Positions 39,215-44,285 of a stretch of 64,000 bases of DNA are shown in pieces. The stretch's first letter is position 1; each line of letters opens with the position of its first letter. A model generated the notes under the pieces. That model did not search any database and was not told the origin of the DNA. It worked only from the letters and a program-made list of their open reading frames with translations. Made by a program: the position numbers and the translations under genes. Origin of the DNA: Sphingobacteriaceae bacterium. GTDB taxonomy: Bacteria; Bacteroidota; Bacteroidia; Sphingobacteriales; Sphingobacteriaceae. The DNA lies in contig CANKAT010000005.1 in assembly GCA_947479815.1 (NCBI GenBank), forward strand, positions 1-64,000, in the 5' to 3' direction.

Positions 39215-39246
39215 TCAAATGCACCAAATAAGTGCATTTTTTATTT
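39215..39246 (+). terminator. Terminator of the DUF4270 gene
   Basis: AAATGCAC (39217-39224) and GTGCATTT (39232-39239) form an 8-bp stem followed by T-rich DNA. Confidence 0.75.
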
Positions 39247-39372
39247 AATTAACAGCCAAAATTCATTCTTCGAATTAAATAAAAGCTGTTAGGCTTGTAA
39301 ATCCTCTATTCAACAAAATCATTATTTAGTTTGACTTTACACGTTAATTAAAATTATTTTAAAAAAAATTTT

Positions 39373-39414
39373 TAACTAATTTATTAGTCGTAAAATTGAC
39401 TAATAAATTAGTTA
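39373..39414 (+). promoter_or_regulatory. Double dyad operator, copy 1
   Basis: TAACTAATTTATTAGTC (39373-39389) and GACTAATAAATTAGTTA (39398-39414) are perfect inverted complements around an 8-base spacer. Each arm is itself a small dyad with ACTAAT.. and ..ATTAGT. This is what two adjacent sites for a dimeric BlaI/MecI-type repressor would look like. It lies right before the ATG of the dead blaI copy. Confidence 0.75.
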
Positions 39415-39416
39415 AA

Positions 39417-39606
39417 ATGAAAAAAATTTAGACAAGCTGATTAGCAAATAATGCAGGTAAATGGTCACTCAAAGCTGGTGGCTATGTCAAAGACATCCCT
39501 CTATTACTGGATGAACCCAAACCTCATACTAATACTGTAACAACCTAGCTTCAGATATTGATAGAAAAAGGATTTGGAATTGCTATTAAAAGGAACTGAA
39601 AAATAA
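39417..39606 (+). pseudogene. Decayed copy of the blaI-family regulator gene
   Basis: This stretch aligns with the intact blaI gene at 43842-44219. It has ATGAAAAAA, then a +1 shift near codon 4 that is offset by a -1 shift before the shared TGGTCACT, an in-frame TAG in the region matching ACCTTACTT of the intact gene, and a 167-bp internal deletion. The deletion joins at GGATTT, which occurs on both sides of the missing part in the intact copy. The remaining tail matches the end of the intact gene with further changes. It cannot make a functional protein. Confidence 0.9.
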
Positions 39607-39869
39607 GCTTATTTGCCTGCTTAAAGTAGATGAGCTCATAGCAAAAGCTTATTGCCATAAAGTATTTACTTAAGTTTAACTATTCTTTAAACCATTTTTG
39701 GTTAGATTTGTCCAATTAACCAGCTTGCAATTAATATTCCAACTATTTAATAACCTTTTATCAAAAAAAATCAAACTAATAGGCGTTCTGTTATTGTTTT
39801 ATATACCAGATGCATCTAAACAGAGTTGTTTATTAAATCAAAGATTATACATCATTAAAATAGAATAAA
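39607..39869. other. AT-rich gap without a gene
   Basis: No reading frame, hairpin terminator or clear promoter is visible. One half-site ACTAAT occurs near 39775 but no full dyad, so there is no sign that the blaI operator controls the following gene directly. Confidence 0.5.
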
Positions 39870-40784
39870 ATGAGAGCCAACATTTTAAAATTTACAAAAA
39901 TCGCCTTGAACACTTTTTGTTTTATGGTTTCATCATTAACGGTAATACAAGCTCAAAAATTAAATGATGTTCAAGACGTTAGCGTTTGGGCATCAGGTGT
40001 GAAAGTTGATGGAAAGCATAACGAGTGGGAAAACAACTTTAAAGCAATGAACAAAAGTACAAACTTGACGTATACCCTTGCTAACGATGCGAAGAACTTA
40101 TACTTAGCAATTCAATCAAAAGATGTGACCAATAATAGTAAAATTTTGTTAGGTGGCATTAGCTTAACGGTCAATCCATCAGGTAAAAAAAATGATAAGG
40201 AAGGCTTTAAAGTTATTTATCCGGTAGTTGCCAGACGCAGACCAGGTGGTGCACCAGGTGGTGGAAGTGGTGGACCTACAGCGGTTAGAGTACAGGGTGG
40301 CCCTGGTGGTTTTAGCCGTTTCCAAGATATGAGTCCGATGCAGAGAGATTCCATGCAAAGGGCCATAGCCAGAACGCAATTAGGCGGTGCCAAAGAGATT
40401 AAAGTTTTTGGTTTTAAAGATATTCCGGATAGCTTGATTTCAATTTATAATGAATACAGTATTAAAACGATTGCATCAATCAGTGATGAGGGAGTTTTTA
40501 TGTATGAACTTTCCATTCCATTAGAATTATTAGAAATGTCGGCTGATAAGCCTAAAGAGTTCTCATACAACATTAAGCTTAATGGCTTACAAATCAATTT
40601 TGGAGGTTTGGCCGGCGGGGCGAGACCCGGTGGTGGTGGTGGTGAAGGAGCTCCGATGGTACGAGTTGAAGTCGCAGGTGGTGGAGGTGGCGGAATGGGA
40701 GGCGGAATGGGAGGTTTTAACTTCCAAGATTTAATCACTCCGACAGATTTTTGGGGTAAATATATTCTAACTAAAGAAAATTAG
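39870..40784 (+). CDS. Secreted glycine-rich protein with CBM9-like N-terminal domain
   Basis: A 304-residue exported protein: signal peptide (cleavage likely after VIQA, residue 28), then a beta-rich region whose VDGKHNEWENNF, TYTLANDAKNLYLAIQ and LTVNPSGKKNDKEG segments resemble CBM9/DOMON-like domains seen in Bacteroidota. Two glycine-rich stretches follow: RPGGAPGGGSGGP near residue 127 and a longer one near 250-282 rich in GGG and GGM. It precedes the barrel protein by 18 bases, so the two likely work together at the outer membrane. Function unknown. Confidence 0.75.
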   Translation: MRANILKFTKIALNTFCFMVSSLTVIQAQKLNDVQDVSVWASGVKVDGKHNEWENNFKAMNKSTNLTYTLANDAKNLYLAIQSKDVTNNSKILLGGISLTVNPSGKKNDKEGFKVIYPVVARRRPGGAPGGGSGGPTAVRVQGGPGGFSRFQDMSPMQRDSMQRAIARTQLGGAKEIKVFGFKDIPDSLISIYNEYSIKTIASISDEGVFMYELSIPLELLEMSADKPKEFSYNIKLNGLQINFGGLAGGARPGGGGGEGAPMVRVEVAGGGGGGMGGGMGGFNFQDLITPTDFWGKYILTKEN

Positions 40785-40802: not shown

Positions 40803-43676
40803 ATGAATTTAAAAACTAGATCGGCGTATCTGTTGCGCAAAAAATATGCTAAAATTTTTCTGTTTACATTAATTTTTAGCCTTACAATTGCTCAGCTTTT
40901 TGCGCAAACCACACCGAAACCACCAGCTACATCGACTCAGCCCATTCCGTTGAGACAAGTATCGGGTGTAGTTAAAGATTCGCTGGATCAAACCGTTATT
41001 GGTGCAACGGTAACTTTAACATCTACCGCAGACACGCTTAAAACTTCAACCAACGAAGACGGGATTTTTATTTTCAAAAATGTAAAATCCTGGGTTTTTA
41101 AAGTTCAGGTAACTTCTTTGGGCCATGTTAGAAAGGTAATTTCCGGCAAATACAATGATGCTACCGCCCGAATTACCTTAGACCCAATCATCTTAAAAAA
41201 TGATGAGAAAGTATTAAGCGAGGTCATTATTAATGGTACCCCATCTATTGTATATAAAACAGATACTGTAGAGTATCGGGCCAGTGATTATGTGGTAAGG
41301 AAAGGTGCTACTGTTGATGAGCTATTGCAAAAAATGGAAGGTGTTCAAGTGGGCAATGATGGTTCGGTAACTGTAAATGGAACAGCTATAGCCAGAGCAC
41401 GATTAAATGGCAAAGATATTTATGGTGGCGATGTGGCTACCGCGGTTCAAAATTTACCTGCAGAAATTGTCGATAAAGTACAAATGGTTGACGATTATGG
41501 AAATACTGCTGCCAGAACCGGGGTTAAAGATGGCGATCCAACCAAAGTATTGAATATTACAACGAGACAAGATAAATCTGTTGGTAATTTGGCAAGGTTA
41601 AACGGAGGTATTGGAACGCTCGATCAATATGAAGGTAGTGCAAACTTAACCCGTATCAATAAGAATCAAACCATCACCGTTAATACAACTTTACTCAAAA
41701 CTCCAAACGGAATTGCAGGTCAAAATGCGAGTATTGGCCGTTTGGGTGGAGCCTCTAACCGGGGTGGAAGAAGTGGAGCAGGCGTTGGAGGAGGCGGTGG
41801 TGGAAGTGCAACAGGCGGCACCAACTTAAGAACTGCACCTGCATTTACCTACCGGGATAAATTCGGTAAAAAGATTGATTTTTTGGCTAATTATAATTTT
41901 AATTACACCGATAATACCACTCAAACTATTAGCAGATCGCAAGCAATCAGTACTTTAGGAACAACTGATTCTAACCGAGATGCTAATATTGAATCCAATA
42001 ATAAAACACATACCATTGGTTTTGAAATAGAATATGCCATTGATAGTGCCAATTATATTCAGTTTTCTCCTAACCTGAATTTTGTCAATTCGACAAGTTC
42101 CAACAAGTCAACGAACTTTCAAAAAGGCTTAATCAATCAGGATCAAATTAATAACAACAACAATAGCAGTACACGTCCAAACATTGGCGGAACGGTTGCT
42201 TATCAACACATTTTTAAAACTCCTTCACGAACTTTCTCTGCCGAAGCTACCATTAGGCAACAACAAAATAACAATGAGGATGAACAATTAAATCTTTTCA
42301 ATTATAGAAATGTTAATCAATTGTTCTTAGGTGATTCTATTCTTAATCGCCTAATTGATGTCAGAAACCTTCAAAAAAGTACCCGTGGTAGTTTAACTTA
42401 TACAGAACCTTTGGGGAAATTATCTCGATTAGAATTTAATACGAATTTAGAAAACAGAGGCTATACTAATAGTCGGCAAACTAGTGATATTCAAGCTAAT
42501 GGAAATTTATCCCTCTTAGATACTTACAGTAATGTGTTTAACTATTCCTTCACTCAATACCGAAATTCTATTAATTACAAATATGGCAATAATACCAGTT
42601 TATTTAATTTCTCTTTGGGTGTAACCGGTGTTAATACTTCTTTAGTAGGAAGCAGTACTAGTGTTGCCTCTAGAATTGATAAACAAAATTTTAGAATTAT
42701 ACCCATTGCTCGTGTTCAATTAAGACTTTCGAGTACGCACAGAGCTTCATTGAACTATAATGGCAGAGCTATTGAGCCCTTGTTTAACCAAATTCAACCT
42801 GTAAAAGACGTTTCAAATCCACAAAATGTCATTGTGGGTAATCCCGATTTGAATGTTGCATTTGCACACAGTGTAAATGCTCAGTATAGCAATTACATTG
42901 CTAATTCAAGAATTAACTATGAATTAAGACTAGGCTCTTCGTTTACAGAAAACCAGGTAGTCAATAATGTTGTTGAGATTAGAGATCCTGCTGCTTTTGG
43001 TATCTTTAAAAATGAAACGCGGTACGTAAATTTAAATGGTAGCAATAGCACTATTGGCGACTATTCTATTTCAAAGCAATTAAGCGATAGAAGATATAGC
43101 CTTAATTTTTTTGGAAATGTTATCAACTCAAACCGTGTTTCGATGAGTAATAACCAGATCAACAGCTCAAAAACTTGGGGTTTTAAGCAAAGTTTTGGTC
43201 CGCGAATGACTCCTAAACCTTGGTTTGACATAAATCCATTCGTTTCATACGATTTTAATAAAATAGATTTTTCTTTAGCCCGCTCTAGAGATGTTATTCA
43301 AAAAATTTGGGCATTGAGTGTAGATGGGAATATTTACTTTGCCAAGAAATACCAATTTGGCTATGCAATAAGTAAAAATTATGTAAGTGGTATTGGTAAT
43401 AATATAACAAATAACCCTTTCATTATTAACTCTATGTTGCAAGTGCGGGTGTTTAAAAATAAAGGCTCTTTGCAATTAAGAGCCTACGATTTGTTGAACC
43501 AAAACAACTTCATCAACAGAACGCAAAATGATTTAGGATTTACAGAGACTTTAACTAATCCGAACAGCCGTTATGTAATGCTTAACTTAAGTATGAATTT
43601 ACAAAAATGGACAGGCGCTGTGGGCAATAATAACAGACCTCTCATTAGAAGAGGTGATGGCAGCTTTGTGAACTAA
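40803..43676 (+). CDS. Outer-membrane beta-barrel protein with CarboxypepD_reg and plug-like domains
   Basis: A 957-residue TonB-receptor-like protein. It has a signal peptide (about residues 1-36), a CarboxypepD_reg-like domain (VSGVVKDSLDQTVIGATVTL near 59, through about 140), a plug-like region with TVDELLQKMEGVQVGNDGSVTVNGT, then a barrel with many paired aromatic/Asn-rich strands (OMP_b-brl_3 type). Residues about 315-345 form a glycine-rich insert (GAGVGGGGGGSATGG) that echoes its partner protein. It probably imports or exports a substrate with help of the upstream gene product, but which substrate is unknown. Confidence 0.82.
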   Translation: MNLKTRSAYLLRKKYAKIFLFTLIFSLTIAQLFAQTTPKPPATSTQPIPLRQVSGVVKDSLDQTVIGATVTLTSTADTLKTSTNEDGIFIFKNVKSWVFKVQVTSLGHVRKVISGKYNDATARITLDPIILKNDEKVLSEVIINGTPSIVYKTDTVEYRASDYVVRKGATVDELLQKMEGVQVGNDGSVTVNGTAIARARLNGKDIYGGDVATAVQNLPAEIVDKVQMVDDYGNTAARTGVKDGDPTKVLNITTRQDKSVGNLARLNGGIGTLDQYEGSANLTRINKNQTITVNTTLLKTPNGIAGQNASIGRLGGASNRGGRSGAGVGGGGGGSATGGTNLRTAPAFTYRDKFGKKIDFLANYNFNYTDNTTQTISRSQAISTLGTTDSNRDANIESNNKTHTIGFEIEYAIDSANYIQFSPNLNFVNSTSSNKSTNFQKGLINQDQINNNNNSSTRPNIGGTVAYQHIFKTPSRTFSAEATIRQQQNNNEDEQLNLFNYRNVNQLFLGDSILNRLIDVRNLQKSTRGSLTYTEPLGKLSRLEFNTNLENRGYTNSRQTSDIQANGNLSLLDTYSNVFNYSFTQYRNSINYKYGNNTSLFNFSLGVTGVNTSLVGSSTSVASRIDKQNFRIIPIARVQLRLSSTHRASLNYNGRAIEPLFNQIQPVKDVSNPQNVIVGNPDLNVAFAHSVNAQYSNYIANSRINYELRLGSSFTENQVVNNVVEIRDPAAFGIFKNETRYVNLNGSNSTIGDYSISKQLSDRRYSLNFFGNVINSNRVSMSNNQINSSKTWGFKQSFGPRMTPKPWFDINPFVSYDFNKIDFSLARSRDVIQKIWALSVDGNIYFAKKYQFGYAISKNYVSGIGNNITNNPFIINSMLQVRVFKNKGSLQLRAYDLLNQNNFINRTQNDLGFTETLTNPNSRYVMLNLSMNLQKWTGAVGNNNRPLIRRGDGSFVN

Positions 43677-43797: not shown

Positions 43798-43839
43798 TAA
43801 CTAAATAATTAGTCGTAATATTGACTAATAAATTAGTTA
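43798..43839 (+). promoter_or_regulatory. Double dyad operator, copy 2
   Basis: TAACTAAATAATTAGTC-like arm (43798-43814) and GACTAATAAATTAGTTA (43823-43839) with the same 8-base spacer. The left arm differs from copy 1 in two positions, the right arm is identical. It lies directly before the intact blaI start, consistent with autorepression. Confidence 0.75.
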
Positions 43840-43841
43840 GA

Positions 43842-44219
43842 ATGAAAAAACTTACACAAGCTGAAGAGCAACTAATGCAGGTACTATGGTCACTTAAAGC
43901 TGGTGGCTATGTCAAAGACATCCTTGAATTACTGGATGAACCCAAACCACATAATAATACTGTAGCAACCTTACTTAAAATCCTGGTAGAAAAAGGATTT
44001 GTAGGGATCAAAAACCCGAATCGAAACAACCTCTATTATCCTCTGGTTACAAAATCTACCTATTCTGAACAAAGCATTGAGGGGCTTACAGAACGATATT
44101 TTGAAGGATCGTACTCCAATGTAGTTTCCTTTCTGGTTGATAAGAAACAAATGTCAATAGAGGATTTGGAATTGCTATTAAAAGAACTCAAGAACAAAAA
44201 ACCTTCTTTGCGTAAATAG
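43842..44219 (+). CDS. BlaI/MecI/CopY family transcriptional repressor
   Basis: A 125-residue winged-helix regulator. The start KKLTQAEEQLMQVLWSLKAGGYVKDIL and the DNA-recognition region NNTVATLLKILVEKGFVGI are typical of BlaI/MecI, and the C-terminal helices near SVEGLTERYFEGSYSNVVSFLV form the dimer part. I chose the ATG at 43842; an in-frame TTG at 43821 would put the operator inside the gene. The usual partner, a BlaR1/M56 protease sensor gene, is not next to it, and panD follows 66 bases later. The operator just upstream suggests autoregulation. Confidence 0.9.
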   Translation: MKKLTQAEEQLMQVLWSLKAGGYVKDILELLDEPKPHNNTVATLLKILVEKGFVGIKNPNRNNLYYPLVTKSTYSEQSIEGLTERYFEGSYSNVVSFLVDKKQMSIEDLELLLKELKNKKPSLRK

Positions 44220-44273
44220 TGAAATCTATACTAAATGAGCCATGTTAACTCAATTAGATTCCATCCAATATAT

Positions 44274-44281
44274 TAACTTTG
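44274..44281 (+). promoter_or_regulatory. -7 element right before panD
   Basis: TAACTTTG ends four bases before the panD ATG. If used, the transcript would begin at or near the start codon and be leaderless. No good -33 TTG is seen. Confidence 0.5.
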
Positions 44282-44285
44282 CACC

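Follow-up and report, generated by a model that had tools for sequence, protein, structure and literature searches.

A predicted double operator stands in front of a dead copy of the regulator gene blaI, upstream of an outer-membrane-protein operon (orf304-OMP957), in the stretch of Sphingobacteriaceae DNA analyzed here (64,000 nucleotides; hereafter the window). We favor, with a probability of roughly 0.57, the reading that duplicated blaI front ends have repeatedly given this operon an extra BlaI-repressible promoter. From the operator onward the gene order is dead blaI, orf304, OMP957, intact blaI and panD, and the relevant features are the following.

39217..39239, unstranded: hairpin resembling a terminator, between the DUF4270 gene and the operator (hairpin scan)
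39370..39417, unstranded: inverted repeat, 20+20 bases with an 8-base loop (sequence and repeat scan)
39375..39388, unstranded: upstream dyad of the double operator, ACTAA-TTTA-TTAGT (30 aligned operators)
39391..39398, + strand: -7-like element TAAAATTG of the TAnnTTTG type, between the two dyads (sequence, alignment and the consensus of PMC9723704)
39399..39412, unstranded: downstream dyad of the double operator, ACTAA-TAAA-TTAGT (30 aligned operators)
39417..39607, + strand: dead blaI copy with frameshift, early stop and internal deletion, 3′ end kept (alignment to intact blaI)
39702..39712, + strand: probable native -7 element (TTAGATTTGTC) for the orf304 operon, shared by all six orthologous loci
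39870..40784, + strand: orf304, a secreted Gly-rich protein with no Pfam or NCBIfam match (family searches)
40803..43676, + strand: OMP957, an outer-membrane beta-barrel protein with CarboxypepD_reg and OMP_b-brl_3 domains (domain search)
43800..43837, unstranded: double operator of intact blaI, ACTAA-ATAA-TTAGT / ACTAA-TAAA-TTAGT, with 24-bp spacing (sequence, alignment)
43816-43823: -7-like element TAATATTG between the dyads of the intact-blaI operator (sequence, alignment)
43842..44219, + strand: intact blaI (PF03965), a full-length MecI homologue (domain search, structure homology)
44220..44285, unstranded: gap between blaI and panD, where the sister species has blaR1 (M56)

The arms TAACTAATTTATTAGTC and GACTAATAAATTAGTTA around GTAAAATT, which a preliminary description of this DNA had reported, are exact at 39373-39414, and the perfect repeat is even longer, with 20+20 bases around an 8-base loop at 39370-39417. 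A repeat with 17-base arms (loop up to 20) was absent from 100 dinucleotide shuffles of the window, and the double ACTAA-N4-TTAGT site was found in none of 200 shuffles versus two occurrences in the real window. A chance origin of the dyad layout is excluded by these shuffles. It is also evident that, as had been noted, the layout recurs before intact blaI with two bases of the left dyad changed, both of them in the 4-base center.

With the window blaI as the query for homologues, upstream regions were inspected and 30 double operators were aligned. Paired ACTAA-N4-TTAGT dyads lie upstream of close homologues of blaI at 27 further loci, spread over several families of Bacteroidota (Daejeonella, Sediminibacterium/Chitinophagaceae, Aquirufa/Cytophagaceae and others), with dyad spacings of 24, 29 or 20 bp, and the upstream dyad is often ACTAAAAAAATAGT. 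This recurrence supports the earlier proposal of two adjacent dimer sites for a BlaI/MecI-type repressor. Among the 30 aligned operators the outer bases of the half-sites are invariant, their innermost base can be T or A, and the 4-base center is variable. The dyads had been described as ACTAAT-N2-ATTAGT; they are real, but that form is too strict, since conservation does not extend to the T/A beside the half-site. Strict double sites occur in 49 genomes of a 181-genome family sample (backward control: 0), most of them 5-93 bp before an intact blaI. Exactly one double site was found in 20 of the 21 searched genomes that have a close blaI homologue, and only the sister genome G010 has more, three.

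In the operator alignment, one dyad sits between TTTG and TAnnTTTG-like promoter elements, the latter matching the Bacteroidota -7 consensus TAnnTTTG (PMC9723704), which is the position expected for a polymerase-blocking repressor. Neither operator copy of the window has the -33 TTTG that G010 shows. Dyads conserved across species, upstream of a regulator gene and over its promoter, incline us to predict that the element is a BlaI-type double operator interleaved with a Bacteroidota promoter. A literature search found no paper on BlaI operators in Bacteroidota.

The operator of the dead copy had been regarded as the more perfect of the two. This did not hold, as none of the four half-sites differs between the two window operators or in G010, and the match between the arms arises in the non-conserved N4 center, where it is unique to the dead copy among the 30 aligned operators. 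Its upstream dyad has the center TTTA, and the usual center is A-rich. Since the other 29 operators mismatch at 2-4 of the 4 center bases, arm-to-arm perfection was rejected as a sign of selection; judging from the alignment, it is a coincidence of drift in the N4 center and not a matter of operator quality.

That the blaI copy behind the operator is dead was confirmed: a frameshift and an early stop follow the ATG at 39417, and a large internal deletion ends, as read from the sequence, at the two AGGATTTG repeats of intact blaI. The 3′ end of the copy abuts the unique flank of orf304. The sister species Daejeonella sp. DJPMRC01 (G010) shares the gene order of the window genome (G000), with a double operator and a short blaI stub upstream of orf304; its upstream copy has been eroded to this stub with both dyads retained. 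A second double operator in G010 precedes blaI-blaR1, a BlaR1-like ORF following blaI. In the closest relative (G004, OMP 97% identical), the downstream blaI is deleted, and the upstream dead copy consists of the 3′ half only, with the operator gone. The right-hand flank sequence is common to G000, G004 and G010, which favors a single insertion, with erosion afterwards proceeding separately. When the dead copies of G000 and G010 are compared, all 20 half-site positions are unchanged, versus changes at 40 of 136 (29%) other positions (P = 0.002, Fisher's exact test; half-sites defined from other loci, one species pair). These results suggest that the dead-copy operator is probably not mere debris, and they agree with the earlier suggestion that it may be under selection.

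The intact gene encodes a member of the repressor family. Penicillinase_R (PF03965) scores 94.2 bits against a cut-off of 22.6 over residues 4-117, and residues 4-120 align to the MecI structures 1sd6/1okr (E = 1.4e-9) through both the DNA-binding and the dimerization domains. Scores against the NCBIfam equivalog/exception models are all below cut-off (CopY 58.7, BlaI 41 and MecI 38.6 bits). The MecI/BlaI/CopY operator is TACA-N2-TGTA (TACANNTGTA; PMC7253601), and the conserved site here is ACTAA-N4-TTAGT instead; window BlaI is thus best described as a family member with its own operator. The window and G010 blaI genes show 9.5 nonsynonymous versus 56.5 synonymous differences, a pattern of strong constraint on the protein. 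Synonymous divergence between these two genes (43842-44219 vs L023:6001-6366) is near saturation, with a pS of 0.74, the neighboring OMP957 having 0.285, and the proteins are 97% identical despite it. The history of blaI may be separate from that of its neighbors, by transfer or conversion; a search found no plasmid relatives of the blaI region.

The window genome has no match to M56 (PF05569), the partner expected of a BlaI-BlaR1 operon. From this comparison with the sister species, blaR1 is lost in the window genome, and BlaI is left without its known type of inducer. We also observed that a C-terminal stretch of the sister species' M56 protein BlaR1 resembles SusC/TonB-receptor sequence. 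The preliminary description had proposed a genome scan for ACTAAT-N2-ATTAGT and its double form as a way to define a regulon. Such a scan, which for single and degenerate sites covered the ACTAAT-N2-ATTAGT form, gave strict double sites only at the blaI promoter and before orf304, and a single ACTAATAAATTAGT elsewhere, on contig C65 inside a coding ORF. With BlaI constrained and strict double sites present only at its own promoter and before orf304, a repressor acting on itself only would be hard to explain, although this is an argument and not a proof.

Homologues of orf304 are present in 129 of 401 Sphingobacteriaceae genomes, and its N-terminal region may resemble a 'VDGKxxEW' carbohydrate-binding type of fold. 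The operon has a probable native promoter of the TTAxATTTGTC (TAnnTTTG) type, 144-174 bp before the orf304 ATG in all six orthologues, and the operator ends 366-457 bp before that ATG. The native promoter, being closer to the ATG, would not be occluded by the operator. A simple scan found no plus-strand terminator between the operator and orf304, which is weak as evidence of read-through. An ancestral, family-wide presence of blaI at this operon was considered and rejected: in 24 homologous loci from other genera, no blaI lies 1.5 kb or less from orf304. Similarly, none precedes 13 paralogous operons.

A second copy of a blaI front end is found before the same operon in another lineage. In G019, the orf304-outer-membrane-protein operon is preceded by 297 bp copied, with 97% identity, from the front of another blaI-blaR1 operon, which is intact at G019:C163; the copy carries a double ACGAA-N3-TTCGT operator and 54 codons. 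Two unrelated operators therefore precede the same operon in two lineages, the window/G010 lineage and that of G019. Counting both types, the 20 genus genomes contain 17 double sites, of which 14 are located before an intact blaI and three before orf304, and no orphan double site was found away from orf304. At L112:3285-3596 in G019, the truncated blaI2 is a 58-codon ORF that spans chiefly the DNA-binding domain and has a double operator of its own.

Beyond the genus, in genus g15 (L227-L231), ACTAA-type double operators overlap the promoters of operons for GLPGLI and CarboxypepD_reg outer-membrane proteins, and in genus g14 one double operator precedes an OMP_b-brl_3 gene. Other orphan double operators (L181, L190, L197, L205, L207, L219, L225 and L226) precede TPR, TonB_C and ABC-permease genes. 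A wider BlaI regulon in Sphingobacteriaceae is possible; a search of the available literature library found no paper on BlaI together with GLPGLI. We tentatively propose, at somewhat less than even odds, that in Daejeonella the same outer-membrane-protein operon came under BlaI-family control at least twice through 'decapitated' regulator copies, in which the operator-promoter and 5′ end of a different blaI are duplicated on each occasion and the coding part dies but the operator persists. This would be a way for a regulon to expand, converging on a kind of target with a native BlaI-type operator in a related genus.

The proposed sequence of events would be as follows. An ancestral duplicate of the blaI front end was presumably inserted upstream of the orf304-OMP957 operon, and its reading frame decayed; the operator and the -7 element would have been kept because they supplied the operon with an additional BlaI-repressible promoter. 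The repressor would be BlaI from the intact gene about 4.4 kb downstream, whose dimers, seated on the two dyads, would cover the promoter spacer and the start region. Removal of BlaI by a BlaR1-type M56 protease, present in G010 and lost in the window genome, would then permit transcription through the dead gene into orf304-OMP957. Binding, repression, read-through and a benefit to the operon are inferences; the operator sequence, its link with blaI genes, its persistence through the decay of the gene, the sister-species synteny and the parallel copy in G019 are direct observations. With blaR1 and the -33 TTTG both missing, the window genome probably shows the link in decay; in G010 it is probably better preserved, and G004 has probably lost it. 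The nearer, conserved native promoter, the degraded -33 element and the lost blaR1, which leaves no known way to induce in the window genome, are weak points of the extra promoter.

The main competitor, which we consider unlikely but by no means negligible, is that the dead copy is a decaying blaI duplicate whose operator is intact through short time or gene conversion, binding BlaI passively and controlling nothing. The coding part of the dead copy is only 13.5% diverged from window blaI, with agreement at 21 of 27 informative sites in its 5′ portion, which means that parts of the copy could have been refreshed by gene conversion or by a later re-duplication; that the operon has a conserved promoter of its own and that the link is already lost in G004 would also suit such a relic. 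However, the operator region is about as close to window blaI (6 matches) as to G010 blaI (7), which gives no sign of conversion there, and a relic does not sit well with half-sites unchanged amid 29% divergence elsewhere, nor with an independent front-end copy of another blaI before the same operon in G019.

Alternatively, the region before orf304 may tolerate or attract insertions, two blaI fragments having landed there without any regulatory benefit. The sequence upstream of the operon does differ in every orthologous locus (unrelated in G018 and G009, a rearranged flank in G004), but we give this a small chance: both fragments are blaI-type front ends in the sense direction with intact double operators, and the 20 genus genomes hold no orphan double site elsewhere. 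It is far less probable still that the 20+20 repeat works at the RNA level, as a terminator or attenuator hairpin, and not as a site for protein binding. The stem is strong, and on the minus strand a run of T comes after it, but arm pairing is not conserved across the operators, in 29 of 30 of which 2-4 of the 4 center bases mismatch and the half-sites stay invariant, and this reading was rejected. Covariation between the two arms is absent in relatives, no Rfam family matches at gathering score, and upstream of the operator the DUF4270 gene is followed by a terminator-like hairpin of its own.

The BlaI-repressible promoter that we favor can be compared with three other systems. Like the BlaI/MecI-BlaR1/MecR1 systems of Staphylococcus and Bacillus, it involves a full-length PF03965 MecI homologue, dyads over the regulator's own promoter and, in the sister species, an M56-type partner gene. 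It differs in that the partner is lost in the window genome, in the operator (ACTAA-N4-TTAGT here, TACA/TGTA there; PMC7253601) and in the target, by proposal an outer-membrane-protein operon. The CopR-CopY repressors likewise have two (cop) operators upstream of the regulator gene, most of them 24-39 bases apart (PMC7253601), a spacing comparable to the 20-29 here; the half-site differs, and the CopY equivalog score is 58.7 here against a cut-off of 121.95. The GLPGLI-outer-membrane-protein operons of other Sphingobacteriaceae share the half-sites, the adjacent TAnnTTTG promoter and the CarboxypepD_reg target. Those operons lack a dead blaI, and in them the operator and the native promoter overlap, whereas here the operator came with the blaI front-end copy and stands 5′ of the native promoter.

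Growth of a regulon is usually attributed to point mutations through which new binding sites arise. The present case suggests that an operon can acquire new control when the front end of a regulator gene is copied beside it: a ready-made operator-promoter was apparently copied with a regulator fragment and kept after the fragment died, twice at the same operon. The twofold ACTAA-N4-TTAGT site also provides a clear operator consensus usable for annotating such regulators in Bacteroidota. If confirmed, the locus would offer a tractable case of regulation rewired through duplication, and the BlaI/M56 systems of Bacteroidota, which have been little studied, would be linked to operons for outer-membrane proteins rather than to beta-lactamases.
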